DNA from: a virus
Length of the DNA stretch: 58,481 nt
Strand: one strand, 5' to 3'
Virus record (IMG/VR): IMGVR_UViG_3300008110_007236
Location: 1-58,481 of that record
Of this stretch, positions 38,441 through 58,481 are shown one piece after another. A program made the translations under genes and the position numbers. Below the pieces are notes generated by a model. That model was not told the DNA's origin, did not search any database, and saw nothing but the letters and a program-made list of their open reading frames with translations. How positions within the stretch are numbered: position 1 is the first letter of the stretch; each line of letters opens with the position of its first letter.

Positions 38441-39366
38441 GTTATGAACTCTTTAACATATTTGATAAAATCATCGTTATCTGTCAATAATAATGAATTA
38501 ATGTCTTTTGAAATATCTTCTCGCCTTCTTTCAACGCCACCGCAGACATAATCAATATCATATATCACTTCCTTACCATAAACTGCACACTCAACAATAA
38601 ACCTTGGGCTACAATCTCCTTTATCTGGTGTAGCAGTATATATGTAGGTATCAAAGTTTTCAAATATATTTTTGATTGGCGCTTGAGCAACAATCACATT
38701 GTCGCTTGCTATCGTTTTGTAGATGTGAGGTTCATTAGTAAGTACTAGATATTTGTCAAATTGATATTTAGATAAAACATTTTTCAAATCATTAATTGAT
38801 AATGCTCTACAGTTAGTAGTTAGGTAGAGAAGTGCTGTATTAGTTTTTATTAGTTGTGGATGATGATATTTTGACCAAAGTATCTTTTTGACATAGTCTA
38901 TTACTTTGATATTAATGTTATCATATCTCTCAGGATATAACTTAAAATCCTGCATGACATGAGCATGTTTGATTGTTTTGTGATTATGGAAGCTACTGAA
39001 GTCGTCTTCACTACACCTTAGTAAAAACATATTTTCAGTATAGAAGACACAACTTAAGAATCGCCAACTGCCATCAACAACACAGACATTGTTTGCCATA
39101 ACAATTTTAGGCACAGCACACTCAAACGTGTCTTCTTGTATTTTTACAAATTCGTCTTCTGTGAAACTATATTTGTCTTTGACCGCAGTTAAAAATAAAT
39201 CTTTGCTAGTACGGTCAGTTAACAAAATGCAGGAATTAATTCCATTGATAGAACTTATGTAATAATAGTCGATGAGTTCATACAAGTGGCCACTGACACC
39301 ATGCTGGCATTCAAAAGAAGTGGTGAAGACGAGATCGTACTTCTTTAGATCGACTATTTTGGACAT
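38437..39366 (-). CDS. Putative GT-B-like glycosyltransferase or unknown
   Basis: 309 residues. C-terminal half has ALLYLTTNCRALSIND, DKYLVLTNEPHIYKTI, and FENFDTYIYTATPDKGDCSP then RFIVECAVYGKEVIYDID, which looks like the nucleotide-sugar half of a GT-B glycosyltransferase (D/E-rich loop then EAxxxGKxV). N-terminal half: TTSFECQHGVSGHLYELIDYY. There is no strict motif, so this is a moderate guess. Confidence 0.45.
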   Translation of the reverse strand: MSKIVDLKKYDLVFTTSFECQHGVSGHLYELIDYYYISSINGINSCILLTDRTSKDLFLTAVKDKYSFTEDEFVKIQEDTFECAVPKIVMANNVCVVDGSWRFLSCVFYTENMFLLRCSEDDFSSFHNHKTIKHAHVMQDFKLYPERYDNINIKVIDYVKKILWSKYHHPQLIKTNTALLYLTTNCRALSINDLKNVLSKYQFDKYLVLTNEPHIYKTIASDNVIVAQAPIKNIFENFDTYIYTATPDKGDCSPRFIVECAVYGKEVIYDIDYVCGGVERRREDISKDINSLLLTDNDDFIKYVKEFIT

Positions 39367-39369
39367 CTG

Positions 39370-40371
39370 TCACTCCTTTGGAGCGAAGATTTGTTCAAGA
39401 GTGATTGGGGTGTAACCTAAAGAAACAAGCAAAGAATCTGAAAGATGTGGGAGTGGACGATTGTATTCTTTTTCTAATTCTTCTCTAAATCTAGAATATG
39501 CTGAACATATTCCTTCAACTGCGTCAACATCCACGTAGTCTAAATTTAAATTTTCTTTTTCCCACACAGATATTATTCCGTTGTAATCTGCATATCCTTC
39601 AGGCATCTGAATTTTGTGATTTTCAATCTCAACGTAACCACTCTTTAATATATCTTCAAATTTAATAGATGTTACGTCAGTGAGTTGGTTTAGTGTATAT
39701 GCGTTAACTGCTGACCTAATTGCTCTTATTCGATTTCTCTCTGGAGACATTGTAGGATTTTTTTCATAATACGAAGGTTTATTTTCGTTGAAGTATGTAA
39801 CTACGGAAGGGTGTCTTATGATATTGTACACCTTTACATTTTGCTCACCTATGTCTCTTTTTATTAAATCAATAAATGCTTTTGAAAAAGAACCATTTAC
39901 AACATGTACATTAGATGGTCTATTTCTATAGTAATTTAAAAAGTCTTGATAACCGTGTGCAAAACTATGATACTGTATTGGAGTATCCCATTCATAGGCG
40001 CTAGTATCTATACCAAGATCATATTCTATATCAACAAAAATAGTTTCAAAACTTGAAGGATTATTTGTCATGTCTAAAAATAATCTATCATACAAGTCGT
40101 CAGCTTCTGTAAAAATAGACAACCCGTCCTCGCCGCTAAGAAGTGTTGTTAGTTCTCGATTTTTTGTATCATAAACAACTTCATTTTGTGCATTGAATAT
40201 TTGAAAAGGATGAGCTATATATGACTTACCATCGTCAGATTCTGCAAATTCTGCATCAAACGTAACAGTGTGTCCATTTTTCAAATTAAAGACTGGATTC
40301 ATAGCGCAAAAAACTTTTTTTGCGATATAATTTTTATTAATTGATTCTAGACCACTAATAATGACTAACAT
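39370..40371 (-). CDS. Sulfotransferase-like protein (paralogue B)
   Basis: 333 residues. It starts MLVIISGLESINKNYIAKKV, like paralogue A at 33593. It contains VYNIIRHPSVVTYF, TSIKFEDILKSGYVEI and the C-terminus LVSLGYTPITLEQIFAPKE, each matching paralogue A in order. An insert of about 100 residues lies near the N-terminus (HTVTFDAEFAESDDGKSYIA…). The fold fits sulfotransferases with a diverged P-loop, so donor use is uncertain. The pair flanks the radical SAM/glycosyltransferase set. Confidence 0.55.
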   Translation of the reverse strand: MLVIISGLESINKNYIAKKVFCAMNPVFNLKNGHTVTFDAEFAESDDGKSYIAHPFQIFNAQNEVVYDTKNRELTTLLSGEDGLSIFTEADDLYDRLFLDMTNNPSSFETIFVDIEYDLGIDTSAYEWDTPIQYHSFAHGYQDFLNYYRNRPSNVHVVNGSFSKAFIDLIKRDIGEQNVKVYNIIRHPSVVTYFNENKPSYYEKNPTMSPERNRIRAIRSAVNAYTLNQLTDVTSIKFEDILKSGYVEIENHKIQMPEGYADYNGIISVWEKENLNLDYVDVDAVEGICSAYSRFREELEKEYNRPLPHLSDSLLVSLGYTPITLEQIFAPKE

Positions 40372-40375
40372 CCAA

Positions 40376-40783
40376 TTATTTCCTTAGATAAGACTCAACA
40401 ATCAAATTAACTGCGTCCTCATCATTTTGATTTGGCAGTCTTTTTAATTTGTTTATAATATCAAAATACTGTTCTTTTTTATCTTCTAAAATTTTAATTT
40501 CGTCTTTTAAAGTGATGTATTTTTCTAAATCTGCAATCAATGACTCGTCATTAAGTTCAATGATTTTAATATAACATTCTTCTTTATTATCATCTGTGAT
40601 TGCAATGCCTTTACTTAAAAATTTATTGTTTAACATCATTAAAGACACGAAGTCAATTAATTTAAAAGTTAAAAGGTCATCACCAAAATAACCACGGGCC
40701 TTAGTTTTAACTGCCCATGCCGCTTTTCCTGCATAAGTTGATCTGTCAATACCTTCTATTTCTTTTTTATTACTGTCATCCAT
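40376..40783 (-). CDS. Hypothetical coiled-coil protein
   Basis: 135 residues from the ATG at 40783 (MDDSNKKEIEGIDRSTYAGK), which begins one base after the stop of the S74 fibre gene and has a GAGG ribosome site; an earlier TTG is less likely. It has a helix with LLTFKLIDFVSLMMLNNKFL and a coiled coil (LEKYITLKDEIKILEDKKEQ). It could be an assembly partner of the adjacent Cys-rich fibre protein; it could equally be unrelated. No family recognised. Confidence 0.5.
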   Translation of the reverse strand: MDDSNKKEIEGIDRSTYAGKAAWAVKTKARGYFGDDLLTFKLIDFVSLMMLNNKFLSKGIAITDDNKEECYIKIIELNDESLIADLEKYITLKDEIKILEDKKEQYFDIINKLKRLPNQNDEDAVNLIVESYLRK

Positions 40784-40784
40784 C

Positions 40785-41501
40785 TTAAGCCTCAATCATT
40801 TTTACTGGTAATTTTGAATAGTTTACTTGATAATAACCGTTTGAATCTTTACTTAGTGCATCTTCATATTTGGTGCCTAAAAGTTCTTGAGCCATAACAC
40901 CAATATAAGTCTTAGCAGTGTTCCAAACGTAAGAGAAGGAATAAACATTTAAGCCTTCAACAATGTCAACAAGTTTGATAGATGTCTTTAATCTAATATC
41001 ACTGGTATAATTACATTGGCATGTGCATGAGTAGTTACAATCACATGTACAGTAGTTACAATTACAGGTACAGTAATTACAATTACAGACGCAGACTGAT
41101 CCAGCACTGTTAACTTTGGCCATCATATTATTAACATCATCAGCAAAAATATTAACGTTTGGATCAACTCCAAAGAAGTCTCCTGTAGGTGCAGGAGCCT
41201 GAGCAAACTCTTGGAAGACGTTGTTACTATCATAATAGCCGCGTGGGGTTAAAGGTCTTCCTTGTATTTCTACAGAATTTTTTAAAAAATTTAAATCGGC
41301 AGCTTCAATCAAACCAGTAAATCTAGCTTGAACTACAGGTGCGGCGGTGCTTCCTCGTCTAACACGTTCTAAATTGACTGCGGTTTCAATTTCTCTAAAT
41401 TTGGTAGTTGTAACTTGTACTCCGGCTGCAACTGCTGGCAAAAAATAAATTACAGCATCTGATCCAGGATTGGTACCAAATGTATTAATGACTTTTGGCA
41501 T
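40785..41501 (-). CDS. Cys-rich fibre-like protein with C-terminal S74 (endosialidase chaperone) domain
   Basis: 238 residues. Residues 1-130 are beta-rich (fibre-like). Residues 137-163 carry 12 cysteines in a regular C-x-C-N-Y-C pattern. TSDIRLKTSIKLVDIVEGLNV (166 on) through YIGVMAQELLGTKYEDAL and VNYSKLPVKMIEA is a Peptidase_S74 intramolecular chaperone domain that usually self-cleaves from phage fibres. The Cys block directly before the S74 domain is very unusual. It may bind metal, form cross-links, or be a substrate of the neighbouring radical SAM enzymes. Confidence 0.75.
   Translation of the reverse strand: MPKVINTFGTNPGSDAVIYFLPAVAAGVQVTTTKFREIETAVNLERVRRGSTAAPVVQARFTGLIEAADLNFLKNSVEIQGRPLTPRGYYDSNNVFQEFAQAPAPTGDFFGVDPNVNIFADDVNNMMAKVNSAGSVCVCNCNYCTCNCNYCTCDCNYSCTCQCNYTSDIRLKTSIKLVDIVEGLNVYSFSYVWNTAKTYIGVMAQELLGTKYEDALSKDSNGYYQVNYSKLPVKMIEA
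41013..41093 (-). repeat. Tandem Cys-rich coding repeat (CNCNYC)
   Basis: Codons for residues 137-163 of the S74 protein. The unit of about 7 residues (C-x-C-N-Y-C-T) repeats about four times with DNA similarity (runs of GTAATTACAATTACAG-like sequence). Twelve cysteines in 27 residues. Confidence 0.8.
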
Positions 41502-41514
41502 TACGTTGCTCCTC

Positions 41515-41904
41515 TTATATCTCTTTGTTCAAGAACTCTAAGTTCTGTTTAGCACTATTTTGAGCAACAAACTTTTCATAATCGTCTAAATCAGAAGAGG
41601 CAGTTATAAAATCGAGAGTCTCTTCGTCTGGTGCTTTAGTAAAATTCATGTTTCCGTTTTCTACGGCTTGTTTTTCCAAAATGCTCAAAACTAATTCTTC
41701 CAATGAAAAACCCAAAATGCCTGTAACAATTTGGATTTTTTCGCTTACATCCATATTTTTTGTTTCAGCAACATGTTTGGCTGCTTTGATAATGTTTATT
41801 GACATACCAAAGCCTTCCATGAAGACGTATCCAACATCTTGATTCTCTTTCTCGATTTCCTTAATCAAATCATAAATTTGACCCATTTTTTCTTCAATCG
41901 CCAT
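41515..41904 (-). CDS. Small acidic helical protein next to radical SAM genes
   Basis: 129 residues, acidic and all-helical in appearance: MAIEEKMGQIYDLIKEIEKE, then FGMSINIIKAAKHVAETKNM, then ILGFSLEELVLSILEKQAVE. No cysteine, so it is not itself a Cys-rich peptide substrate. It sits between the fibre gene (13-base gap) and a radical SAM gene (overlap 11 bases). It might be a carrier, chaperone or recognition protein for that enzyme. Family unknown. Confidence 0.5.
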   Translation of the reverse strand: MAIEEKMGQIYDLIKEIEKENQDVGYVFMEGFGMSINIIKAAKHVAETKNMDVSEKIQIVTGILGFSLEELVLSILEKQAVENGNMNFTKAPDEETLDFITASSDLDDYEKFVAQNSAKQNLEFLNKEI

Positions 41905-42784
41905 TTTTTAATTCCTTGTCTTTAAAATCGTGAAAACGCGGCGCATTTTCGTAATTACCATATGTTGTGACGTTGCCTTCATCAGTGAAATACGTTTTTA
42001 ACTGCTTTCGCTCCCCGCATCCGTTGCACATATCGCAAAATAGTTCACAAATAGGGGTTTTTATGCTGTTATTTATCCAATCATCTCTGAGCTGATTTTT
42101 AATCCTATCTAGGGTTTTCACATCGTTTTCGTCAATTTGTTCCCAAACTACAGATGTTATCAATCTAACTGGCTTGAAGGTTTTAATGATTCTTGTCATA
42201 TCTTCATAAAGATGATTGATATTAAGTTTGTGTATGGTATATCTTATTCTAAATTTCACCCTATTTTGATTTAATTTAGATAAAACTTTAATTATGGTTG
42301 TAGTACTATCCATACCATTGTGGAAAATCCTATCGCCATTTCCCACACCGTCAAAGCTCACGTCTATGCTCAACTGTCCGCTCTTATAAAAGAAATTATT
42401 TTTAACCCTGTTAATAAATCTTTGACTTAAAAATCTTAAACCATTTGTGGTTAAATTAAAATGTACATTCTTTTTCTTAAGATATGCGTATGACATAGCG
42501 TAACAGACATTGTCCCATTCTAAAGTGGCCTCTCCACCAAATAGTACTATTAATGTTTGTCTGTCTGGATCCAATTCTCTTTCCAAGATAGCATCAATGC
42601 TTTTTTCAATATCTTCCTTAGTCATGATCTGTGGAGGACGACCTGGCAGATCTTCGTAACAATAGGTGCAGGCTAAATTACACTTATTTGTAAAATATAA
42701 AACATTAACTGCTGAACCTTCAAAAGTAGGTTTCTCTGTTTTATCACCTACATAAAATTCATAAGGAAAGGCCGTATCTGTCAT
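41894..42784 (-). CDS. Radical SAM protein
   Basis: 296 residues. Core C35/C39/C42 (CNLACTYC), VLFGGEATLEWD and LTTNGLRF segments. C-terminal ICELFCDMCNGCGERK gives four Cys close together, enough for an auxiliary 4Fe-4S. Similar to the SPASM-related maturases of sulfatases and peptides. Overlaps the 129-residue and 89-residue small genes by 11 and 4 bases. Confidence 0.85.
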   Translation of the reverse strand: MTDTAFPYEFYVGDKTEKPTFEGSAVNVLYFTNKCNLACTYCYEDLPGRPPQIMTKEDIEKSIDAILERELDPDRQTLIVLFGGEATLEWDNVCYAMSYAYLKKKNVHFNLTTNGLRFLSQRFINRVKNNFFYKSGQLSIDVSFDGVGNGDRIFHNGMDSTTTIIKVLSKLNQNRVKFRIRYTIHKLNINHLYEDMTRIIKTFKPVRLITSVVWEQIDENDVKTLDRIKNQLRDDWINNSIKTPICELFCDMCNGCGERKQLKTYFTDEGNVTTYGNYENAPRFHDFKDKELKNGD

Positions 42785-43050
42785 TGTCTAGCCTTTGCTT
42801 CTTTTACAATGTGAGCAACATTATCTAAGAATTTTACGTAATCAAATTTATATTCAAACAAGTGGCCTGCTTCATTCCTGTAATCAACATAATGATTGTC
42901 TACTTTTGCCTTGCCTTTTTTTGCTTCTTCAATTTGTTGTTGTAAATTATCAATAGTTAAAACAGTATCGCTCTTATGCTCAACTGGCTGCATTTCTACT
43001 TTAACAGGAATGGCAGCTATGCTTTTATAAGTTTTTTTTAATTCTTGCAT
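42781..43050 (-). CDS. Small basic protein between two radical SAM genes
   Basis: 89 residues: MQELKKTYKSIAAIPVKVEM start, a coiled-helix DTVLTIDNLQQQIEEAKKGK, then HYVDYRNEAGHLFEYKFDYV and an end KEAKARQ. No Cys. The position between two radical SAM/SPASM genes with overlaps of 4 and 13 bases is where RiPP precursor or recognition peptides often lie, but no leader/core split is evident. Role unknown. Confidence 0.5.
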   Translation of the reverse strand: MQELKKTYKSIAAIPVKVEMQPVEHKSDTVLTIDNLQQQIEEAKKGKAKVDNHYVDYRNEAGHLFEYKFDYVKFLDNVAHIVKEAKARQ

Positions 43051-44165
43051 TTTTGCACATCCTTTGAATCAGAAGCACCTTCACTGAGCCAATGAACAAT
43101 GAGGTCTTGAAATACTGGCTCATCTCGACATTCATCTACTACACGCATTGCTTGTTCGTAAGTGATGTGGAAAATTTCACAAATACTATCTAAAGGTTTG
43201 TTGTCGTTCATTATTTGACTGTAAGTACAACCTGCATTACATACTTGTTTTAGATCACAAGGTTGGCACTTGTCAAAAGTTTTTGGATTAAACTTGTCTT
43301 GATAATATTTGAAATTATAATTGTCGTCCATGAGCATGATTTTCTTACTAGCAAATCTAGCACATGGATAAAACTCGCCGCTACTCATCAAAACACCACC
43401 GTGTGTTCCTGCAAAACAACCAAATGGTCTTTTACCTTTTACTAGTCCGTATATAGAATCTAATATTGCCAGTCTAAGGAAACCAACACTACATGATACA
43501 CCTTGTTTTAACTTTTCAATATAACAGTCAGTTAGTCTAACTAATTCAGTTTTGAAAAATCTAATATCATCAGCAGTCCAAACATCGTCTCTAACAATAC
43601 TAAAGTCTGGATGTGGGATACCCCAATCTAAAAGAAACTCAAAATTTTCTTTCATGTCTTTGGTATTGCCTGGCCAAATCATAACCTTACATCCATTTGC
43701 TAGATCTTTTATTAGATGTTTTTTGTGCTCGTATAAGTCTAAGATTCCATTAAACAACTCTCCAGTTTCTGGATTAGTGTTTTCAAGTAAGGGAAGTAAT
43801 GGTCTGCTTTCGTTTGAACTCATTCCATCAAAGCTCCAACTTATTCCTATTCCAGATTCTTTGATAAATTTAAACTTATCATCATCTATCATAGTTAAAT
43901 TAGAGATAATGTTTATTCCTTTACATCTAGGATCTTTGGTTAATATTGGAGTTGCATGTTTGATCAATTCCCAATTTAATAAAGGCTCTCCTCCAAAAAA
44001 ACTAACAAAGAAATCCTTTTGTCCAGAACGATCCATTAATTCAAATAGTTTTGGTAAAGATTCATCAAATGTTTCTTTGGTCATCCAAGTAGGACGATTT
44101 GCCACATAACAATAAGGACATCCCAAATTACATTTTTCAGTAACGCTAATTTCTAATACAAACAT
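43038..44165 (-). CDS. Radical SAM/SPASM protein
   Basis: 375 residues. Core C12/C16/C19 (CNLGCPYC), FFGGEPLLNWELIKHA. The SPASM C-terminal domain is clear: FGCFAGTHGGVLMSSGEFYP, then CQPCDLKQVCNAGC (CX2CX5CX3C) and a later Cys in DSICEIFH. This is the layout of anaerobic sulfatase-maturating enzymes and of RiPP maturases (thioether or C-C cross-links). Substrate probably a peptide or protein. Confidence 0.9.
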   Translation of the reverse strand: MFVLEISVTEKCNLGCPYCYVANRPTWMTKETFDESLPKLFELMDRSGQKDFFVSFFGGEPLLNWELIKHATPILTKDPRCKGINIISNLTMIDDDKFKFIKESGIGISWSFDGMSSNESRPLLPLLENTNPETGELFNGILDLYEHKKHLIKDLANGCKVMIWPGNTKDMKENFEFLLDWGIPHPDFSIVRDDVWTADDIRFFKTELVRLTDCYIEKLKQGVSCSVGFLRLAILDSIYGLVKGKRPFGCFAGTHGGVLMSSGEFYPCARFASKKIMLMDDNYNFKYYQDKFNPKTFDKCQPCDLKQVCNAGCTYSQIMNDNKPLDSICEIFHITYEQAMRVVDECRDEPVFQDLIVHWLSEGASDSKDVQKCKN

Positions 44166-44174
44166 ATCGTCTCC

Positions 44175-45281
44175 TTATGCTGTACATTGTTCAGCGTGAA
44201 TCTTAATAACAGGCTTTTTGTATGTGTTCATTGCAGTTCTTAGAGCATGATGAACTACTTCGTTTGTCTTAAAAACTTTACATACTTGCCAATTAGAAGT
44301 ATGATCACTCCACTTTTCTAAATAAGTTTCTTTCTCTGATTTTTCAAACGTGGCTGCATTACACTTCATGCAAAATTGGCTATCGCAACTCATACAATCC
44401 AAAGGTTGATTTTTTAGTGCATCTTTATACATTGCACTTCGTTCTTGTATAAGTTCATCTATGTTAGGTGTTGTATTAATATTACCCATAACATGTGCAT
44501 GTGATTCTTTATACATACAACCATGGCAAGGACTAATATCTCCGTTTAGGTCAACACTAACATATTTGATTCCAGCTGAACATAGCGGTCTACTCTGTTG
44601 GAACCAAGCAAAAACTTCTGGTTTTAGTTTATTGGTGTAAATGTATTTTGCAATTTTTGCCAATCCCTGTTTGAGCACTTCAAGTTTTGGATAAAATTCT
44701 TCTTCAGTTAATTGGCTGTAAAGGTCTGGAGTGGGGAAATATGAACCTGTAAGTTCATATACATCTAGGAATGCTTCATATATCAAGTGAAAGTTTTCAG
44801 CAGTTAAAACAGATTTCATTCTAACATTCAATCCATTTTCTCTAGCAGCCAAGAAATTAGCCTTTACTAGTTCAGAGCTTACGTTTCCTGATTTGTCTAC
44901 TCTAGTTCTATCATTGACGGCCTTACCATCATAAGATATTTGGAACTGTAGTCTTTCACCTAATTCTTTTGTTAGAGCAACTAGTTCTTTCATATACTTT
45001 CTTAAATATACACCATTGGTATAAAAGAAGAAACTATAATTAGAATCATGTTTATATTTTTCTATGACGCCTTTACAAAATTCCCAATTAATAAAAGGTT
45101 CACCGCCCCAAAAATAAATTTCTCTTTTTGGGTCTGAGAGTTTACTCATAAACTCTTCAATGTTGTCTAGGGTTACGGAAGTGTTTTCTTCATATGCTGT
45201 TGATAGGCCGCATTCATAGCCTTCAGAACAGTAAGTACAAGCCAGATTGCACGTACTGGTTACGTTGATGTCAATTATCAT
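44175..45281 (-). CDS. Radical SAM/SPASM protein
   Basis: 368 residues. Core C11/C15/C18 (CNLACTYC) and YFWGGEPFINWEFCKGV. SPASM region: RPLCSAGIKYVSVDLNGD then SPCHGCMYKE and DCMSCDSQFCMKCNA with a last Cys in WQVCKVFK. It has the same general layout as the neighbouring SPASM protein, so the two form a pair. AAGGAAAAAT is the ribosome site before the ATG. Confidence 0.9.
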   Translation of the reverse strand: MIIDINVTSTCNLACTYCSEGYECGLSTAYEENTSVTLDNIEEFMSKLSDPKREIYFWGGEPFINWEFCKGVIEKYKHDSNYSFFFYTNGVYLRKYMKELVALTKELGERLQFQISYDGKAVNDRTRVDKSGNVSSELVKANFLAARENGLNVRMKSVLTAENFHLIYEAFLDVYELTGSYFPTPDLYSQLTEEEFYPKLEVLKQGLAKIAKYIYTNKLKPEVFAWFQQSRPLCSAGIKYVSVDLNGDISPCHGCMYKESHAHVMGNINTTPNIDELIQERSAMYKDALKNQPLDCMSCDSQFCMKCNAATFEKSEKETYLEKWSDHTSNWQVCKVFKTNEVVHHALRTAMNTYKKPVIKIHAEQCTA

Positions 45282-46147: not shown

Positions 46148-47338
46148 ATGATTAATAAAGAACCATTTGAAAAACTAATAGCGGATTTAAAAGACAGTGG
46201 CAAATATCGAGTTTTTAACGACATTGTACGTGAAAACGGCAAGTTTCCAAATGCCATTTGGTACGGTCCTTATAACATTAAAAACATCGTAAATTGGTGC
46301 TCAAACGATTACCTAGGCATGGGTCAGCACAAAGTTGTTATTGACGCAATGCACACTGCGTTGGATCAAACAGGGTCTGGTTCTGGAGGTACTCGAAACA
46401 TTGGTGGGACTAGTCACTATCACGTAGCATTAGAACACGAGATTGCCACGTTACATAAAAAACAAAAAGCAGTTCTTTTTTCAAGCGCCTATGTAGCCAA
46501 CGAATGGACTCTAATCGCACTTGCTAAAATTATTCCAAATATTGAATACATCAGCGACGAAAACAATCACAACAGTATGATTGTAGGTATTAGTCATAGT
46601 AAAGCCAAAAAAGTTATTTTCAAACACAACGATATGGATGACTTAGAGCAGAAGCTAAAAATTAGTTTTGCTCAGGGTAACGTGCCTTGTGTTGTTTTTG
46701 AAAGCGTCTATAGTATGGACGGTGATGTTGGTCACATAAAAGATATTTGTAAATTAGCTAAAAAATACAAAGCTATTACCTATATTGATGAAGTACACGC
46801 AGTAGGGCTATATGGACAACGTGGCGCAGGCAAAGTAGAAGAGCTTGGACTAGAGTCAGAGATAGACATTATAAATGGAACATTAGGTAAAGCATTTGGG
46901 GTGCAGGGAGGTTACATTGCCTGCGATAGTATTGTTGCTGACGCAATACGTAGTATAGCCGCAGGCTTTATTTTTACAACAAGTATGAGTCCAGTTACAT
47001 GTGCGGGTGCTTTGGCTGCAATCAAATATTTAAAAGAGCACAATGAAATTAGAGACCGTCATCAAGAAAGAGCACAAAAATTGAAATTAGAATTAGTAAA
47101 AGCAGGACTTCCTCTTATGAGTTGTTCTACTACACACATTGTTCCTGTTCTAGTTGGGGAAGCTAAAAAGTGTAAAGCAATGAGTGATGCATTATTAAAT
47201 GATCACAACATATATGTTCAGCCAATTAATTATCCTACTGTCAACGTTGGCACTGAGAGGTTGCGATTTGCTCCTACTCCGTTTCATGACGACGGGATGA
47301 TTGAGGACTTGGTCAAAGCCCTCAAAACATTATTTTAA
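46148..47338 (+). CDS. hemA: 5-aminolevulinate synthase (ALAS)
   Basis: 396 residues, full length. It condenses glycine with succinyl-CoA to 5-aminolevulinate, the first step of tetrapyrrole synthesis in alphaproteobacteria (Shemin pathway). PLP lysine K248 (TLGKAFG), D214/H217 in IDEVHAVG and H142 (ENNHNSMI) are conserved. The ALAS-specific N-terminus [17 protein letters not shown] separates it from BioF and Kbl. [20 protein letters not shown] is the glycine-rich loop. Phage ALAS genes have been reported from aquatic metagenomes as I recall. Supplies haem/chlorophyll precursor during infection. Confidence 0.92.
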
Positions 47339-50783: not shown

Positions 50784-51017
50784 TTATTTGCCTTTACCAT
50801 TGCGATCGCCACCAAGTGGGCCGCCGTATTTGACATGTTTGATTTTCTTACCGTAGACTTGTTTGCCTTTTAACACTTTCTTATCGTGTCTTGGACGTAG
50901 GCCACGGGCAACACATTGACTTTGATCACTGTTACCTAAATGTTTTGGACTTTTACAGACGTGAGTCGCAACAAAGCGTTCTTCTAAATCTTCGTTTGTA
51001 ATTTCATGGAATCTCAT
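50784..51017 (-). CDS. Small basic protein with capsid-targeting-like N-terminus
   Basis: 77 residues, very basic (K/R/H-rich). N-terminus MRFHEITNEDLEER resembles the capsid-targeting group, with T-N-E in place of I-x-E, so cleavage is less sure. It has a HVCKSPKHLGNSDQSQC Cys pair like the next gene (CSNPKGFSQRAHC), and the tail KKIKHVKYGGPLGGDRNGKG is basic. Possible DNA-binding internal head protein. Overlaps its neighbour by 4 bases. Confidence 0.55.
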   Translation of the reverse strand: MRFHEITNEDLEERFVATHVCKSPKHLGNSDQSQCVARGLRPRHDKKVLKGKQVYGKKIKHVKYGGPLGGDRNGKGK

Positions 51018-51769
51018 TTTGCCTTAGCCTTTCCTGCTTTCATATTAGCCATCCAATGCGCCAACTGTCCTTTTCTTCCGCCTTGTTTAGCAACTTTACG
51101 CAATGTATTTACACTGGCTTTAGTAGGAACTCCATGACGTTTGCTGTCGCCTTTGTCTTGAGGATTTCGTCCGTCAGCAAAGTTTTCTGCTACATTAAAC
51201 CTAGGATCAGTTTTTTGTCTTGGCATGCCTTTAGGTTGATTAGGATCAACAGGATCAATGTCAGTTGTTGTTAATCCTGTCTTTTTTAATGCGTTGATAT
51301 ATTTGTGCTCTTCTTCTTCGCTACCAAAACTAAACATAGTGCTAGGAGGACCTTGGCCAAAATCGTGTTTACCAAGACCTTCTAAATCAGATATGTGCAT
51401 GCCTAACTTATACCAATCATAAACATCACTGACGTCTACTTTAACAGATCCTTGTGGCATAGTTGGTTTAGTTTCAGGTCCACGTGGTGTATCATTTGGA
51501 TGATAATCTTCGTTACTGTCCCCAATATTTTCTTCTACACCGCCATCGCCACTGTAGCCTGAGTCATATCCATACCATCCATATGGTCCAGGACCATAAG
51601 CGGCGTACTTAGGTTTACGTTTCTTTTTACGTTCTTCTAATTCAACTTCTTCGTTTTTGTTTCTGCCCTGACAATGAGCACGTTGACTAAACCCTTTGGG
51701 ATTAGAACAATTGATAGAACGTTTGTACTTGTCGCTCCATTCTTCATTTATAAATTCATACGCTCTCAT
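51014..51769 (-). CDS. Internal-head-like protein with MRAYEFINE N-terminus
   Basis: 251 residues. MRAYEFINE followed by a Cys motif (SINCSNPKGFSQRAHCQGR), then a Lys/Arg-rich zone, a Gly/Tyr-rich part (YAAYGPGPYGWYGYDSGYSG), acidic middle and a basic C-terminus (RKVAKQGGRKGQLAHWMANM). The N-terminal peptide and its I-N-E site closely match T4 internal-protein capsid-targeting sequences (MKTYQEFIAE in IPIII). Probably packaged in the head and processed by a gp21-type protease; function after injection unknown. Confidence 0.65.
   Translation of the reverse strand: MRAYEFINEEWSDKYKRSINCSNPKGFSQRAHCQGRNKNEEVELEERKKKRKPKYAAYGPGPYGWYGYDSGYSGDGGVEENIGDSNEDYHPNDTPRGPETKPTMPQGSVKVDVSDVYDWYKLGMHISDLEGLGKHDFGQGPPSTMFSFGSEEEEHKYINALKKTGLTTTDIDPVDPNQPKGMPRQKTDPRFNVAENFADGRNPQDKGDSKRHGVPTKASVNTLRKVAKQGGRKGQLAHWMANMKAGKAKAK
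51741..51769 (-). repeat. Near-identical start-region repeat, copy 1
   Basis: First 29 bases of this gene differ at a single position (apart from the end) from the first 29 bases of the gene at 52291 (ATGAGAGC[G/A]TATGAATTTATAAATGAAG). It is the coding sequence of the shared targeting peptide MRAYEFINE. Confidence 0.8.
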
Positions 51770-52291
51770 TTAGTAACCTTTTCTAAGTCTGTCATATCTC
51801 ATTTGATCTGTTGTACGTTTAGGATCAAACGATGTTTGAAAAGGATCTTCAATTGGTGCTCGCCAACTGTTGGGATCAGCTCGATCTAGGTTAGTTCCGC
51901 CACCGCCTCGAGGAAGTCTAGGCGCAGGTATTGTCTTGACTGCTGACGGTTGTGACGCAGTTGTTCCAATATTTTGACTTCTAAATTCGTTGGGTGTTAA
52001 TTTACGACCAGCTTTTTCATCAGCACTTAACATATCACCAATGCCAAGAAAGTTTCCAGCCCGTTGTTTGGCATTTTGTTGTTGAGACCATTTTTTCAAA
52101 GCCTCTTTATCAACTGGTTCCGTTTCTAATGTACCGCCACTTAATATTTCTTTTCGTATCTGTTCAGGGCTTCGTTCAACTCCGCCTATTACTGGATGTT
52201 GTGGTTTTATTCCAGCGGCACGATTGGCATCAATTTGTTTAAAAATTGTTTCGTAATCCAAAGCTTCATTTATAAATTCATATGCTCTCAT
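51770..52291 (-). CDS. Internal-head-like protein with MRAYEFINE N-terminus
   Basis: 173 residues, starting MRAYEFINEALDYETIF, identical for the first nine residues to its neighbour. The rest is mostly hydrophilic: PQHPVIGGVERSPEQIRKEI, then a Gly/Pro-rich stretch (APRLPRGGGGTNLDRADPNS) and an Arg-rich end (KRTTDQMRYDRLRKGY). No enzyme motif. The stop directly abuts the next gene. Predicted to be carried inside the head. Confidence 0.65.
   Translation of the reverse strand: MRAYEFINEALDYETIFKQIDANRAAGIKPQHPVIGGVERSPEQIRKEILSGGTLETEPVDKEALKKWSQQQNAKQRAGNFLGIGDMLSADEKAGRKLTPNEFRSQNIGTTASQPSAVKTIPAPRLPRGGGGTNLDRADPNSWRAPIEDPFQTSFDPKRTTDQMRYDRLRKGY
52263..52291 (-). repeat. Near-identical start-region repeat, copy 2
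   Basis: See copy 1 at 51741-51769; same DNA for the targeting peptide, indicating duplication or gene conversion of the 5' end. Confidence 0.8.
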
Positions 52292-53055
52292 TCACAGTTC
52301 CAACGACGTAATGCTTTGTTGATTGGGCTGTCTGGATCTCGTTTAGTCTTAGCACTTGCATGAGCTTTCTTCATACCGCTCATACGGGCACAGAAACTCT
52401 TACGACGTTTAGCACTCTTGCTACCCTTCTTTAACTTATTAGGCTTTGTAGTAACCGCTGTCTTTAGTTTACTGCCTGGATTCTCACGACGATATGCCTT
52501 GACAGCTTTACTACTCATTCCATCTGTCTTATCACTCTTATTGACCTTTTGCCAATCTTCTTTTAAAAATAATAATTGACTTGAAGCTGTCTCATATAAG
52601 ACATCATCATCTAATGATTCAAAGTAATTCCAAACTACATCTTCACTTGTGTTATTTTTGTCCGATAATCTTTGAACTAAACTTTCCATAGCTTCAAACA
52701 TTTGTACAACTTCTGGGTCTTCTTCACGCTCTTCTTCTGACTTCATGTAATCCCAAACAGTTACTAACATTGATTTGGCCACTGCAATTTTTTCTTGGCA
52801 CCACTCTGGAAGATTATCTCCTTCATGAATTAGGTCATCAATGCCTTGGACGGCACGTTCTAATGTACTTAAATTATTATCAGCCATTCCTGCTTCATCG
52901 TCATATTCAGGATTAAAATTTTCATTGGCGTTAGGTACACAATTAGGAACTGTTTTACCATTCTTCTTTTTTGTACCTACAGGGTGATAACCTTTCCAAC
53001 AAGGATTATCTTTTTTGTCTTCTAAACCTTCAATTAAAAACTCTGTAATTTTCAT
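52288..53055 (-). CDS. Internal-head-like protein with DUF6321-type basic C-terminus
   Basis: 255 residues. N-terminus MKITEFLIEGLEDK (L-I-E site) of the targeting type, then DNPCWKGYHPVGTKKKNGKT with a Cys pair. A helical middle follows (LSTLERAVQGIDDLIHEGDN). Conserved C-terminal region (about 167-255): TDGMSSKAVKAYRRENPGSK, then KRRKSFCARMSGMKK and DPDSPINKALRRWNC, a motif I associate with many phage proteins (DUF6321). Very basic C-end suggests DNA contact. Likely a packaged protein. Confidence 0.65.
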   Translation of the reverse strand: MKITEFLIEGLEDKKDNPCWKGYHPVGTKKKNGKTVPNCVPNANENFNPEYDDEAGMADNNLSTLERAVQGIDDLIHEGDNLPEWCQEKIAVAKSMLVTVWDYMKSEEEREEDPEVVQMFEAMESLVQRLSDKNNTSEDVVWNYFESLDDDVLYETASSQLLFLKEDWQKVNKSDKTDGMSSKAVKAYRRENPGSKLKTAVTTKPNKLKKGSKSAKRRKSFCARMSGMKKAHASAKTKRDPDSPINKALRRWNCE

Positions 53056-53067
53056 TTGTTATCCTAA

Positions 53068-56000
53068 TTAACCAATATTTAGTGAACGAACGATCTCGTA
53101 CCAGTCTGTTCCGCCGTTAATGGTATAGAATTTGAAGAAGTCTTTCCTACCAATATTACTAGACATTGCACTTCCATTTGGTGCGTTTGCATTTATCCAT
53201 CTAATGGAAGTGTTAGTAACACCAAATGTTGTTGGGGTACTAACTGCACAATGAAATACTACATTGACTTCAAAATAACCGTTATTAGGAACATTAGTAA
53301 ATGCTATGTTATTAATTTGACTACTTCTATTAACTTCATGGAAAGCTCCTTGACTGCAATCAATAGAAACATCAGTTCCAACGATTTGTATTCTACCACC
53401 AACAGTTCCTGGATTAACTGCTAAATTAACTTTGTTAAACTTTGGACTTGCAGTTTGTCTAATATCCTGTGCAGTTGTTAAATGGAAAGTGCTTACGCCA
53501 TCAGCAGTTGGTGTCCAAGTTAAACTTGGTCCAACATAAAAACTTAAATTAAGTTCGCCAGCAGGTAATCCAGCTCTTCCAAATAAAGTTTGACTAGTGG
53601 TGCCGTTAGATCCGCCATTATTATAAACTAAAGGTAGTTGAGCTGTACCCGCTGTTGGCGAAGCAATAGCATTAACTGTTAATAAAGGTCTTACATTCTT
53701 TGCACTTGCATATTTGTTTTCTGAACCTTCACGTAGACTGTCTGTGCTATTGTTATAACTGAACACACCAGTTGATTGATTATATGATATCAAATTACCT
53801 GGACTTGCACCATCATTAGTAGTTGGTAATGATAAACTTACGGTACTTCTAATTCTAGACTCAGTAGCAAACTTATTTGTAGTTCCGTCACTTAAACTAT
53901 CTAAATTAAGATTGAAGGACCAAACACCTGTAGCTGATGTGTAACTAACAAAAGGTGTTCCTAATGTACCAATATTTGTTGTACTAACTGTAAATGAGTT
54001 TCTAGCTAAAGCACTTGAAAAATATTTGTTTGTTGTTCCTTCAGCTATAGCATCAGTTGTTGGTTTAGTAAATGTTAAAGCGCCTGTTACCCTGTCATAA
54101 TTGAATACGTTTGTATCTGTAGAACTTACGGTCAATGCAAATCTAGCTCTAGCATCTGTATAATATAAATTACTTGTACCTTCTGTAATGGTGTTAGTAT
54201 TGGCATTAAATGTAAATGTAGTAATACCAGTTGCTGGATTATATGTTGAAACCAATGCTTGGCTAGCAGCCACTGTACCCAACTGCGTTACTGATACAGC
54301 CAAGGCACTGTTGACTCTACTACCACTGAAGTAATAAGGGCCTGCGGCACCTTCTGGAACGTTTGAAGTATTGGCTGCTAGAGTAAACTGTCCAGTACCA
54401 GTGTTATAGGTTAAAAGACCGCTTTGACTTGTACTAGTTGCTAGTGTGATAGCAGAGCGAGCCAATGTCTCAGTAAAGAATCTATTAGTAACACCTTGAC
54501 TTAAATTGTCACTGGTAGCATTAATTGTAATTTGTCCAGTACCTGCATTATAGCTGGCAAAGTTAGAGTTACCTGTTACGTTTACACTTATCGCATTACG
54601 AGCTAATGTGTTGGTATAAAACTTGTTAACAGGACCTTCTTGTATTTCATCTGTAGTTGGTTTATTAAAAGTAAAGACACCAGTATTAAAGTTATAACTC
54701 AATACGTCCGTGTCATCTGACACTAGACTTATTGCCGCACGAGCTCTAGAATTAGTAAACCATAAGTTACTTGGTGCAGGAGTACTACGTTCAAATATAT
54801 CATCTGTGAATAGTGTGATGATACCTGTTTTAGTATTAACACTTTGTACTAGTGCAACTCCATCAACATATCGTTTATTGACTGCTATTAAATTATTGCT
54901 GGAAGCGTCAACTAGATAATTCAAAATTAAGGCACCACTCATTGTGCCGCCGCCAACAGATAACTTACCACTTAACGCAGTACTAACTGTTTGATAAAAT
55001 AAAGTATCACCATTTATAGCATTTCCCAATGCTTGAATGGTTGTTAAACCTGCAACAGGATTACCTGTGACAGAGGTTCTAACTGCATCAACATAATTCT
55101 TGTTGGCTATTTGTGTTCCTAAACTCTGTGCAGTTAGATCAGGAACACGTGGTGTACCTGTGAGTATTGGGCTTACACTTGGTGCGGCTCCTGTGATATC
55201 GCCCACACCTAAAACAACTGCACCGGCATATCCGTTAACACTGGTAACAGCGCCACTTAGAGTAAAGCGACCTTGTACAGGATCATAGCCTAATCCAGAA
55301 CCACTTGGAACATTGAATTGACTACGGACAAAGTCTCCTAAGAAATTTGAATCTAAACTAAAGGTAAATGTATCTGTTGGGTCTGAATATGCAGATAAAA
55401 TTCCGTTGGTGCTAACTGCTTTAAATGTTAATACTGTTCCAATGCCAATGGTTGCATTGTATCCTGGATTTAATGTTATCAAGTTACCCTGTACCTGCTG
55501 TACAGTTACACGACCTTGTATACCAGTTCCTGTTACATACCATCCAGTTTGTATGTTTGTACTATCAGCAACACTAACCTGTGCGGCACTTGTTCCAACA
55601 CCAGTGGTGTTTAAAATTAAAGTTCCACCAACAACAATGCTAAATCCTGCAGGTGTATAAACAGCAGGGCTAACTGTAAAGCTAGTTGCTCCCACAGTTT
55701 GTACTGTAACGTTCTGTGGGAAGCCAGTACCTGCAACTGTTTGACCACTGGTAATGCCGCTGGTACTAGTAACAAAAATAGTAGAAACACTAGTGCTGTT
55801 ACCAGCGGCTGTGGTAGTGACTGTTGTGCTATTTGGGTTGCCTAATTGGAACATCGTTGCCACAGCATTTTGAGCACGATCATTGGTAAAATATAAATTA
55901 GTACCCTCTGCCAAGTTAGTAGTTGTCTTGGTAGCTAGGGCTGTGTCAAATCTAGTTGAGGTCCAATATACGTTAGTGGTACCCTCATCCAAATCATCTG

Positions 56001-57306
56001 TTGTATGGTTAGCAATACTGGTAACTGTACCATCAATGTCAGCAATGATACGTTGGTTAACTGGATCCCATGCGGCACCATCTGTAATGTCGCCTACGGC
56101 AGTACCAGTGCTTGGGTAGTAGGCCAAGTTGTTGACAATACCTGCTTGTACTGTACCCACACCAGCGGCACCACCTACGGCTGCTTCAATGACCAAGTTC
56201 TTGTTGTCCTCGTCATAGCCAATGGTAATGTTACTACCAGCGGCTATGTTGTAAAACTCTAAGGTACCATCTACTTTGCTACGATATATACCTAAGGATG
56301 TTGGGCCTGGAGGAGCTAGGTTAACTGCGTCAGTGATAGTACCTACTTGGGGTGCGCTGACTACAATCTCACCGTTCTCACCTGTGCTCAGTACAACACC
56401 AGCACCTGCTTTAATTTTATTGAATGTAAAGGTAGCATCGGCATAAGTTTTTAAAACACCCAACCCAGTTTGACCAACATCGTTAGTTGCATTTAAAGAT
56501 ACAGCCAACTGAACTGATTTATCCCCTGTATTTGGCGTAAGAGTAATTCCTACCCCACTTAAAAGATTAAAGGTATCGTTAACAGCATTGGTGACAATAT
56601 TTGTAGTGTTGTTGACTCTAACGGTATTGAAAGCTTGTTTTAATACGGTATCTAAAGTTAACTCTAATCCACTACCTGCCTGAGTTATAGTCATGCCTGA
56701 GCCTGAACGCAGGCTCTTAAATTTATGTTGGAACGTAACTCCGTCAGTGCTAGAATAAACTCCAAATGCTCCTGCGGCATCACTGACGTTGGTGCCAGAG
56801 TAAATGGCACTGTTGATTCTAACACCAGTAGAGTCTGCTTCTAAAGTTACATTATTACCTGCACGTAGGGTTTTAATAACTAGATTACTACCGCTCTTAG
56901 GTGCCACCAATGACAAATCGCCGTTGGTAACACTGGCTGGAACTGCATTACTAATAAAATTGGTTAGGCCTATTTCTGTTGTTACCTCAACCCAAGTACC
57001 ATTCATACTAAAGTAGGTTTTGTTATCTGCCTGACTATAGGCCATCATTCCTGGGTATGTGGTAGCTGATGGAAACTGTCCTTGATTAGTAAAACTGTTT
57101 CTAAAATATATCTTTTTGGTTGTGAGTATATCGGAGGTAACTTCTGAGTTCTTGGCTGCGTTCAACAACGGCCATCCGCCTAGTGTTGCACCATCATGCA
57201 CACGTATGGTATCTATAGTTGTATCTACTGTGATTTCACCTTCGGCACCGGCAAACTGACTGTGGTCGATTGTGGTACCTCTACGAATTCTTACGCTTTT
57301 TGACAT
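53068..57306 (-). CDS. Giant repetitive tail fibre
   Basis: 1412 residues. Same N-terminal anchor type as the tail spike (VRIRRGTTIDHSQFAGAEGE…VHDGATLGGWPLLN). The body has about ten copies of a repeat of the form (S/T)DxLxEGxTNxYxTxxRAxxA, for example TDDLDEGTTNVYWTSTRF, ADAIAEGTTNKYFSSALA-type and DNLSQGVTNRFFTETLAR. Such repeats build long fibres in T4-like aquatic phages. The C-terminal about 250 residues may be the host-binding or trimerisation domain. GGTAAATA lies 38 bases upstream and an AGAGGATTAA ribosome site precedes the ATG. Confidence 0.85.
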   Translation of the reverse strand: MSKSVRIRRGTTIDHSQFAGAEGEITVDTTIDTIRVHDGATLGGWPLLNAAKNSEVTSDILTTKKIYFRNSFTNQGQFPSATTYPGMMAYSQADNKTYFSMNGTWVEVTTEIGLTNFISNAVPASVTNGDLSLVAPKSGSNLVIKTLRAGNNVTLEADSTGVRINSAIYSGTNVSDAAGAFGVYSSTDGVTFQHKFKSLRSGSGMTITQAGSGLELTLDTVLKQAFNTVRVNNTTNIVTNAVNDTFNLLSGVGITLTPNTGDKSVQLAVSLNATNDVGQTGLGVLKTYADATFTFNKIKAGAGVVLSTGENGEIVVSAPQVGTITDAVNLAPPGPTSLGIYRSKVDGTLEFYNIAAGSNITIGYDEDNKNLVIEAAVGGAAGVGTVQAGIVNNLAYYPSTGTAVGDITDGAAWDPVNQRIIADIDGTVTSIANHTTDDLDEGTTNVYWTSTRFDTALATKTTTNLAEGTNLYFTNDRAQNAVATMFQLGNPNSTTVTTTAAGNSTSVSTIFVTSTSGITSGQTVAGTGFPQNVTVQTVGATSFTVSPAVYTPAGFSIVVGGTLILNTTGVGTSAAQVSVADSTNIQTGWYVTGTGIQGRVTVQQVQGNLITLNPGYNATIGIGTVLTFKAVSTNGILSAYSDPTDTFTFSLDSNFLGDFVRSQFNVPSGSGLGYDPVQGRFTLSGAVTSVNGYAGAVVLGVGDITGAAPSVSPILTGTPRVPDLTAQSLGTQIANKNYVDAVRTSVTGNPVAGLTTIQALGNAINGDTLFYQTVSTALSGKLSVGGGTMSGALILNYLVDASSNNLIAVNKRYVDGVALVQSVNTKTGIITLFTDDIFERSTPAPSNLWFTNSRARAAISLVSDDTDVLSYNFNTGVFTFNKPTTDEIQEGPVNKFYTNTLARNAISVNVTGNSNFASYNAGTGQITINATSDNLSQGVTNRFFTETLARSAITLATSTSQSGLLTYNTGTGQFTLAANTSNVPEGAAGPYYFSGSRVNSALAVSVTQLGTVAASQALVSTYNPATGITTFTFNANTNTITEGTSNLYYTDARARFALTVSSTDTNVFNYDRVTGALTFTKPTTDAIAEGTTNKYFSSALARNSFTVSTTNIGTLGTPFVSYTSATGVWSFNLNLDSLSDGTTNKFATESRIRSTVSLSLPTTNDGASPGNLISYNQSTGVFSYNNSTDSLREGSENKYASAKNVRPLLTVNAIASPTAGTAQLPLVYNNGGSNGTTSQTLFGRAGLPAGELNLSFYVGPSLTWTPTADGVSTFHLTTAQDIRQTASPKFNKVNLAVNPGTVGGRIQIVGTDVSIDCSQGAFHEVNRSSQINNIAFTNVPNNGYFEVNVVFHCAVSTPTTFGVTNTSIRWINANAPNGSAMSSNIGRKDFFKFYTINGGTDWYEIVRSLNIG
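53850..56050 (-). repeat. Tandem fibre repeat block (about ten copies)
   Basis: Coding repeats of the fibre protein with pattern D-x-(L/I)-x-(E/D/Q)-G-x-(T/E)-N-x-(Y/F)-(x)-T/S at irregular intervals of about 40-90 residues, spread through the middle of the gene. Boundaries are approximate. Confidence 0.6.
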
Positions 57307-57344
57307 CGATTAATCCTCTAGGAGCCCTATTATGGTTCTAAGTA

Positions 57345-57352
57345 TATTTACC
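57345..57352 (-). promoter_or_regulatory. Late-promoter-like GGTAAATA for the giant fibre
   Basis: Minus-strand GGTAAATA, 38 bases before the fibre ATG at 57306; the same GGTAAATATAC string precedes the structural gene at 15580. Confidence 0.5.
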
Positions 57353-57360
57353 CAAACTGA

Positions 57361-57498
57361 CTACCACTTGCCCAATGGACATTTGCTGGGGAACCAAGCA
57401 CATTTAGCTTTTATCATGCAACCGCACTGGTGGCATCGCCCTCGATAGTTTTCTTTGCACTTTTCACAGATTGCCAAACGTTTTTGTATATAAAACAT
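57361..57498 (-). CDS. Cys-rich micro-protein (45 residues)
   Basis: 45 residues, MFYIQKRLAICEKCKENYRG then RCHQCGCMIKAKCAWFPSKCPLGKW. Cys pattern CX2C…CX2CGC…CPxGKW is a zinc-ribbon-like motif I associate with small phage proteins (DUF6171-like). Probable metal-binding, function unknown. A TTTAAATA element lies 8 bases before the ATG. Below most gene-finder length limits. Confidence 0.7.
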   Translation of the reverse strand: MFYIQKRLAICEKCKENYRGRCHQCGCMIKAKCAWFPSKCPLGKW

Positions 57499-57568
57499 AA
57501 TATGTTTATTTAAAGTATTTTAGAAACTTAATCTATACAAATTAAAAGACTAGCTGTTAAATGATACA

Positions 57569-57576
57569 AATAAATA
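57569..57576 (+). promoter_or_regulatory. Late-promoter-like AATAAATA with 5-base spacing
   Basis: AATAAATA, then TTTCC, then the ATG at 57582. The string ATAAATATTTCCATGA is shared exactly with the start at 22924. Confidence 0.5.
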
Positions 57577-57581
57577 TTTCC

Positions 57582-57629
57582 ATGAGAGCTAGAGAATTTA
57601 TATACGAAGCTAAAAAAAGTTTCAGGTAA
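57582..57629 (+). pseudogene. 5' end of the GH19 gene (targeting peptide), frameshifted
   Basis: ATG at 57582 gives MRAREFIYEAKKSFR then stop. The nine-residue start fits the capsid-targeting group (I-Y-E). Homology to the downstream GH19 protein resumes in the +1 frame after a run of seven A (57612-57618). Removing one A would join MRAREFIYEAKK to VSGKETGGLGG and on into the enzyme. The lesion may be an assembly or sequencing error, or a true slippery site. Confidence 0.6.
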
Positions 57630-57660
57630 AGAAACTGGTGGCCTAGGTGGTCCTGAAAAC

Positions 57661-58422
57661 ATGGATTACAGTGGAACTAGCAATCAAAACATTATCAAAC
57701 TCTTTGGCGAGCCCAACAGTCGTCGTGGTACTAATAAGAGCAACCCCAACAACGTCAACTACATGCCCCCAGACAAACTTAACTGGCTCAAGAGTGACCC
57801 TGAACGCTTTACCCAATTCATTTATTCAGGTCAAAAAGCTCGCATAGTACCTGATGCCAAACAGGGTTACCGTATGGAGTTTGTTACCCCTGAACTAGCT
57901 CAACAGGCACAGGATGCTTGGAACTATAGGGGTAGAGGACATGTACAGATCACTGGACGAGACCAATATGCCAAGATCAGCCAAGAATTATTTGGGGATG
58001 ATAGATTACTAAAAAATCCTGACCTATTAAACGAGCCTGCCACAGGTCTTAGAGCATCAGCAGCCTATGCTCGACTATATGGTAAAGCTGACCAAGACAC
58101 TAGTCAAAACACCAAACAGAGTTTGAATAGAGCTTTGACAGCAGTGGGTGGCAGCGACAAATATGCCGAGGGTGGTCGTATGTACCAGAAACAGGTCAGT
58201 AGGTTAAATCAGTTTGCACAACAGTTGAATAATCCTCAGACACGAGAAAAACATGATCAACACTATGCCAGCATCGACCTTAGTAAAAAGCCACAGGCAG
58301 CAGACACTGGTGTACAGTCAGCGGCTCAAGAACCACCTGGCATGTTAGACCGTGTGGTACAGGGAGTCAAAGGCATAGGCTCCAGCATAGGAAATATGTT
58401 TGGTCCTAGCACAAATAAATAA
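57661..58422 (+). CDS. GH19-like lysozyme/chitinase-fold protein
   Basis: 253 residues from an internal ATG. WNYRGRGHVQITGRDQYAKI is the GH19 signature, with NYMPPDKLNW and LRASAAYARLYGK around it. The probable catalytic Glu is in KETGGLGG, encoded upstream of the ATG in the same frame, so the true protein begins in the frameshifted leader at 57582. It cleaves peptidoglycan or chitin. The tail (MLDRVVQGVKGIGSSIGNMF) is Gly-rich and amphipathic. If the leader is real it would be a packaged muramidase. Confidence 0.8.
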   Translation: MDYSGTSNQNIIKLFGEPNSRRGTNKSNPNNVNYMPPDKLNWLKSDPERFTQFIYSGQKARIVPDAKQGYRMEFVTPELAQQAQDAWNYRGRGHVQITGRDQYAKISQELFGDDRLLKNPDLLNEPATGLRASAAYARLYGKADQDTSQNTKQSLNRALTAVGGSDKYAEGGRMYQKQVSRLNQFAQQLNNPQTREKHDQHYASIDLSKKPQAADTGVQSAAQEPPGMLDRVVQGVKGIGSSIGNMFGPSTNK

Positions 58423-58449: not shown

Positions 58450-58481
58450 ATGACTTCTAATCTAATACGCAAATATATAGA
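58450..58481 (+). CDS. Start of a hypothetical protein (partial, runs off right edge)
   Basis: ATG at 58450 gives MTSNLIRKYI and stays open to the edge. AATAAATA (58414-58421) lies 28 bases upstream and overlaps the stop of the GH19 gene. Only ten complete codons are visible. No function can be assigned. Confidence 0.4.
   Translation, partial: MTSNLIRKYI

Follow-up and report, generated by a model that had tools for sequence, protein, structure and literature searches.

The stretch of DNA analysed here (the window) is the whole of the 58,481-base virus record IMGVR_UViG_3300008110_007236, with 81 called genes. Many unrelated proteins of this freshwater, T4-like virus begin with a shared short peptide of the MRAxEFIxE type (the tag), which is 9–15 residues long and located at the very N-terminus of the genes. 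As the original prediction had proposed, this shared N-terminus is very probably a capsid-targeting sequence of the kind known from phage T4, cut by gp21 and serving a broad injected cargo. Three observations point to this: the likeness of the (I/L)-x-E end of the tag to the T4 site, the presence of the S77 protease (gp21) and of gp23 in larger relatives, and the occurrence of tagged enzymes in published virion proteomes. That the tag binds the scaffold core and is then cleaved, and that the cargo is injected, are steps that we infer.

Nine starts in the window had been put forward as sharing the peptide, and seven of them were found to end in (I/L)-x-E, which confirms a common N-terminus on unrelated proteins. 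On the minus strand, a cluster of tagged genes encodes a 173-residue protein starting with MRAYEFINE/A, the stroke marking the predicted cut (51773–52291, tag at 52265–52291), for which Pfam and PHROG family searches gave no match; a 251-residue protein with Lys-rich and Gly/Tyr-rich stretches, starting with MRAYEFINE followed by E (51017–51769, tag at 51743–51769); a 255-residue protein with DUF6321 (PF19846, 2e-11) and MKITEFLIE followed by G (52291–53055); and a 77-residue basic Cys protein with the degenerate start MRFHEITNE (50787–51017). The latter lacks (I/L)-x-E, but its relatives in other records carry the full tag (MRAFEFISE, MRAFEFITE, or MRAHEFITE), and it was retained through these relatives only. 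The cluster adjoins a 1412-residue repetitive protein (53068–57306), judged fibre-like by eye. Elsewhere on the minus strand, tags were found on a 95-residue Ala-rich protein (11468–11752, MRWHEIISE then K), a pterin-4a-carbinolamine dehydratase-like protein (18692–19072, MRQWIDIIE then G), and a 140-residue Cys-containing protein (19072–19491, MMRKYITILE then A), the last two with I-x-E and a polar P4 residue.

The tag MRAREFIYE, followed by A, of a GH19-like lysozyme gene (57582–57616, plus strand) is also real. However, 125 bases present in the twin record G001 (76.8 kb, aligned pieces more than 99.9% identical to the window) are missing at the junction 57616/57617, not a multiple of three, and the tag is thus severed from, and out of frame with, the GH19/endolysin-like body (57661–58419, plus strand, phrog_181). 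In G001, the gene is one intact 321-residue frame, tag included, so that the link between tag and lysozyme rests on G001; the Pfam GH19 match to this intact copy reached only E=0.03. Two tagged genes were found beyond those originally listed. One encodes an Fe/Mn superoxide dismutase (SOD) with the 12-residue leader MSYDFIKGFITE followed by G (3990–4538, minus strand). The other has its start cut by the window end (58450–58481, plus strand); in G001 it reads MTSNLIRKYIDIIAE then A and contains LysM. The (I/L)-x-E end is therefore present at 51769, 52291, 53055, 57582, 11752, 19072, 19491, 4538, and 58450 and absent at 51017 and 21307; the last, MRATEIIRG, has no Glu and was rejected as a tag.

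The shared N-terminus is far from chance, and its statistical strength lies in the kin loci. A whole-window search for MRxxEFIxE-type starts, suggested by the original prediction, gave 3 matches to the MRAxEFIxE DNA pattern in the window versus 0 in 100 shuffles, and the pattern occurs in at least 120 stretches of IMG/VR. Among the matches listed and the loci examined, 173 distinct bodies were counted, 166 of which were kept as gene starts (7 were dropped because they were shorter than 40 residues or were preceded by more than 50 open codons). A tag rule, ^M[RK].{1,5}[FILVYM][ILVMF].E, matched 85 of 1130 genes in kin loci, picked by DUF6321 with its 17 genes excluded, versus 1 of 720 in podovirus loci, picked by the podovirus capsid gene (p=9e-18). 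Within the kin loci, the rule was matched by 85/354 M[RK] at gene starts versus 28/680 internal ones (p=3.5e-21). In the window alone, 5 of the 81 called genes match, which corresponds to 5/28 M[RK] starts versus 0/29 internal ones (p=0.023). Four of these five are among the tags named above; the fifth, MKPVLMIHE at 21351(+), fits the rule and was judged accidental, and leaving it out raises p to about 0.05. The start-versus-internal test was also significant in single genomes (G012, p=0.0019; G018, p=0.0028; T4, p=0.0031), and G028 had no rule match.

The end of the tag resembles the T4 prohead cleavage site. T4 gp23 has 521 residues and its mature chain 456; the cut thus falls after E65, in FLTE followed by A. 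T4 IPII and IPIII begin with MKTYQEFIAE, with FIAE then A at residues 7–11, and gp22 and gp24 have LIAE and LLRE, respectively, near their starts. When MRAYEFINE is aligned by its end with the T4 tag, the F and I before x-E are kept. Leaders of this kind on packaged proteins are known in T4 (PMC3012670, PMC9026906). The first ten residues of IPIII suffice for packaging; targeting depends on residues 4 and 7 and cutting on residues 8 and 10, and a foreign protein is directed into T4 heads by the leader on its own (PMC9026906). In kin gp23 proteins, L-x-E is found in the equivalent stretch before an AGxT-like segment, e.g., KYLAE/SATAGATSTGN, where the cut would probably fall. Four small tagged proteins (L060 8189, L212 7403–7597, L192 3554, and L203) resemble this gp23 site after the tag Glu, as in IKE-TASAGATTSGNIAVV in a tagged protein compared with LKE-NASAGSTVSGNIATLN in gp23.

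The site is also kept in families of the window proteins. Among the best 80 loci for SOD, [ILVM]-x-E was conserved in 61/61 distinct homologues, E12 and G13 in 98%, residue 11 being variable. The site was kept in 15/20 relatives of the pterin dehydratase and in 55/55 of the 19491 family (65/80 loci used), though much of the N-terminus is conserved in the latter. The eight-residue search seeds of these three families included the N-termini, and the loci are therefore biased towards kept N-termini. The AlphaFold model of SOD gives residues 1–12 pLDDT values under 50 and the greater part of the body values above 90.

The original prediction expected a gp21-like protease in the genome; none is present in the fragment, but it was found in all 16 kin records of at least 180 kb, G054 included. 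A lone search of the window with PF03420 (S77) was discarded as uninformative, since it gave no match in any of 14 control genomes. A later PF03420 search matched T4, S-CREM2, S-SZBM1, P-SSM2, PA5oct, and PBECO4 and gave no match in P-SSP7 and five podovirus contigs. Altogether, S77 was found in 23 of the 66 kin records searched (4/30, 12/22, and 7/14 in three sets, the first being 30 of 79 records and the second 22 pattern-scan records judged long enough). A full Gp23 match was observed in 16 of 33 records searched, 15 of them with S77; the other, G011, starts just upstream of gp22-gp23. A Gp23 piece of only 30 residues and no S77 were found in G002, and Gp23 was not found in the twin G001. 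The S77 neighbourhood in the larger kin records shows the T4 gene order 67-68-21-22-23.

Published virion proteomes of relatives were also examined. For the Synechococcus phage S-CREM2 (OR473000), a list of 52 virion proteins has been reported (PMC10665884). Six of its 219 coding sequences fit the strict rule, and all six are on the list (p=1.4e-4). Four are clear tags, on a S-adenosylmethionine (SAM) hydrolase (MKDFDSFLEE), a kinase (MKRFDAFLTE), a cytidylyltransferase (MKNFSSFLTE), and ORF13 (MKDLHSFLTE), and these alone give p=0.003. The authors could not rule out carry-over of such enzymes (PMC10665884). For S-SZBM1 (OL473597), 30 virion proteins are listed, and the listed tag protein, MRFRQFIIE then A, is the only one counted as an enzyme (PMC9146016). 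When the two phages were pooled, 7/10 strict rule matches versus 75/427 others were listed (stratified p=6e-4). A kinase of S-CRM01 that has been described as a virion protein (PMC10665884) begins with MISFDQFLSE. In the case of the cytidylyltransferases, 526 records gave a match, and the proteins of five phages were read in addition to those of S-CREM2 and S-SZBM1; the group T4-GC190 has been detected in S-SM1 virions (PMC3037559). The tag was present on all six cyanophage proteins, i.e., those of S-CREM2, S-SZBM1, P-SSM2 (MKSFSQFLTE), S-SM2 (MKSFFQFLSE), Syn19 (MKKFSAFLNE), and ACG-2014f (MRSFLTFLTE), and the homologue of coliphage PBECO4 has no leader. PA5oct has both S77 and gp23, and its EST35_0261 (41.5%) is among the closest named-phage homologues of the window SOD. 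This gene carries the GenBank note 'ESI-MS/MS', which we take to denote virion mass spectrometry (MS). Of the 8 strict matches in PA5oct, four were read: three clean tags, two of them with the note, and a fourth match, at 184808, without it. Separately, S-CREM2 ORF12 (L300:7704-10313, minus strand), a Cas9-like virion protein, has ASFMAEA at residues 20–26, outside the rule.

Several results weigh against a cleaved capsid-targeting sequence. S77 was found in neither the 58-kb window nor the 77-kb twin. The residue after the tag Glu is unrestricted among tagged genes, and a hydrophobic P4 is present in only 2/20 pterin dehydratase and 0/55 19491-family relatives. The SOD model has a helix drawn at residues 3–11. 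The start-versus-internal test was not significant in G001 (p=0.1), G002 (p=0.37), G024 (p=0.07), S-CREM2 (p=0.077), and S-SZBM1 (p=0.18). Four rules were run on S-CREM2, all reported here, and the three looser ones gave much weaker associations (p=0.025, 0.015, and 0.047); in addition, two of the strict matches, ORF17 and ORF156, look accidental rather than tag-like. The strict and loose rules were then run on S-SZBM1 and showed no association with its virion list (strict, 1/4 listed, p=0.45; loose, 1/11, p=0.81). In PA5oct, EST35_0271 (MKIKEIILE) has no MS note, and such notes are also found on a DNA ligase, MazG, and a Clp protease. Finally, the T4 late promoter TATAAATA was not enriched upstream of the tags (3/255 versus 33/1224).

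The detection of tagged proteins in virions cannot tell head from tail, and the tag cluster of the window lies beside the protein judged fibre-like by eye. Instead of a cleaved head signal, the tag could accordingly be a virion-assembly signal for some other part, such as the neck, tail, or baseplate, or else anchor the protein to the scaffold without being cut. We consider this unlikely, because both the (I/L)-x-E end and the sequence continuing as in gp23 suggest the action of the prohead protease, and because most of the tagged bodies that Pfam could name are enzymes.

A relic of common descent, or a copied DNA or RNA start element such as a translation enhancer with no role in targeting, is a still less credible explanation, to which we give very little weight. 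The coding DNA of the two MRAYEFINE copies in the window is indeed nearly identical, as originally noted (26/27 bases), with flanks matching at only 11/40 positions upstream and 17/54 downstream; such identity has p of about 0.03 from codon usage alone. In L047, two neighbouring genes have identical tag 27-mers. Third bases of the tags agree more within contigs (0.654) than between them (0.588), an excess that may be explained by shared codon usage. However, the amino-acid likeness of tags on unrelated genes was 0.591 both within and between contigs, a value reached in 1007/2000 permutations (the window, loci L080–L139, bodies that recurred, and pairs whose bodies are related were excluded from these comparisons). 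The proposal that the peptide spreads as a module is thus not supported, despite the slight third-base excess. Furthermore, the 166 kept tagged genes have 159 distinct 27-mers, their amino acids being fixed by the pattern, which indicates that the peptide is conserved and not the DNA, and the virion association in S-CREM2 also speaks against mere descent or copying. As for a chance likeness of short N-termini, the loosest rule does fit genes without virion evidence as well (13/22 minimal matches in S-CREM2), but the podovirus and internal-Met controls and the shuffles refute it, and its probability is negligible.

Its genes and the near-identical twin mark the window as a probable fragment of a large T4-like phage. 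Of the 81 window genes, relatives were found for 33 in G024 (331 kb), for 27 in G002, and for 22 in G012 (338 kb); G012 and G024 both contain S77 and Gp23. Among the larger records seen, the closest relative is G054 (364 kb). It also carries an S77 gene, and its SOD, nrdA, and nrdB are 83%, 87%, and 82% like those of the window. Besides the lysozyme junction, 95 bases of G001 are missing at 6230/6231, again not a multiple of three; nrdA is split in the window, one frame ending at 6124 and the next starting at 6192; and 41004–41287 is absent from G001. These length differences are either strain variation or assembly errors. In the window, positions 35079–45281 encode five radical-SAM proteins, one with SPASM, not far from a tryptophan halogenase (28476–29753) and an aminotransferase-family gene (46148–47338), which together form a metabolic island unusual for a phage.

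The bodies that follow the tag are diverse. A total of 340 tagged gene records, inter-locus duplicates counted, fell into 91 star clusters, and 90 proteins (88 of the 91 cluster representatives plus two lysozymes with a twin-arginine translocation (Tat)-like segment) were scanned with Pfam. DUF6321 was found in 6 and GH19 in 5; GNAT acetyltransferases, amidoligase, SOD, ADP-ribosyltransferase, M48 peptidase, ParB_N, ASCH, and a few DUFs were found in one to three each. An ADP-ribosyltransferase match, which parallels T4 Alt, was observed on tagged L224:6643-7242 (minus strand) and, below the Pfam cut-off, on L194:5073-5492; several further proteins that look ADP-ribosyltransferase-like by eye were not recognized by Pfam. 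A Tat-like segment directly follows the tag in three GH19 lysozymes, SRRGFLGG in L007:12879-13520, DRRGFLGA in L149:2992-3609, and TRRGFLGA in L043:5753-6379, and in an M48-like peptidase (L004:13055-13726). The Pfam TAT model matched two of the three lysozymes, weakly and below the cut-off. Tandem pairs or triplets of proteins approximately 117–141 residues long, every copy tagged and with starts approximately 365–416 bases apart, occur in L144, L145, L189, L220, L257, and other loci.

If the tag is a capsid-targeting sequence, it would draw a new cargo protein into the prohead scaffold core, where the S77 protease would cleave (I/L)-x-E behind its Glu, just as it processes the major capsid protein. 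The cut would free the cargo inside the head, which it would then share with the packaged DNA until both are ejected into the next host. A broader model, which we put forward tentatively and hold to be somewhat less likely than its opposite, is a general head-cargo system in aquatic T4-like phages, in which any gene gaining an MRAxEFIxE-type tag becomes cargo. Injected lysozymes or peptidases bearing a Tat-like segment would then reach the periplasm of the new host via its own Tat system, where they might open the wall, bar superinfection, or set lysis, and SOD that arrives together with the genome would protect either the incoming DNA or the host at entry.

Like the capsid-targeting sequence of T4 (IPI, IPII, IPIII, and Alt; gp21/S77), the tag is a short N-terminal (I/L)-x-E leader on unrelated bodies, the kin share the S77, gp22, and gp23 gene order, and the ADP-ribosyltransferase family of Alt is represented in the cargo. 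In contrast to MKTYQEFIAE of T4, the tag mostly has nine residues with the consensus MRAxEFIxE, and the putative cargo is larger and different (SOD, GH19 with a Tat-like segment, GNAT, M48 peptidase, and amidoligase). Another comparable class is that of the polyvalent proteins, which enter cells along with the DNA of a phage or plasmid; the tagged proteins resemble them by Pfam names only, with one ART-PolyVal and one Kinase-PolyVal match among the 90. In SPN3US, a prohead protease likewise removes N-terminal propeptides from inner-head and ejected proteins (PMC5694885); however, several of these exceed 100 residues (one, in gp45, has 20), compared with 9–15 in the present system, and the protease there is gp245 and that of the kin S77, whether or not the two are related. 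In the open-licence literature, represented mostly by titles and the beginnings of abstracts, no paper suggested such a tag in cyanophages or environmental T4-like phages. We rate the mechanism as known from T4, and the tag consensus and the apparently much wider, partly doubly addressed cargo as new.

T4, with its small set of internal proteins packaged in the head, is the classic example. Should the tag prove valid, many proteins of aquatic T4-like phages now labelled 'hypothetical' (at least 166 distinct) could be recognized from sequence alone as injected effectors. It would also explain the cytidylyltransferases, kinases, and SAM hydrolase in cyanophage virion proteomes, and would add to the short tags with which proteins can be loaded into the heads of phages.

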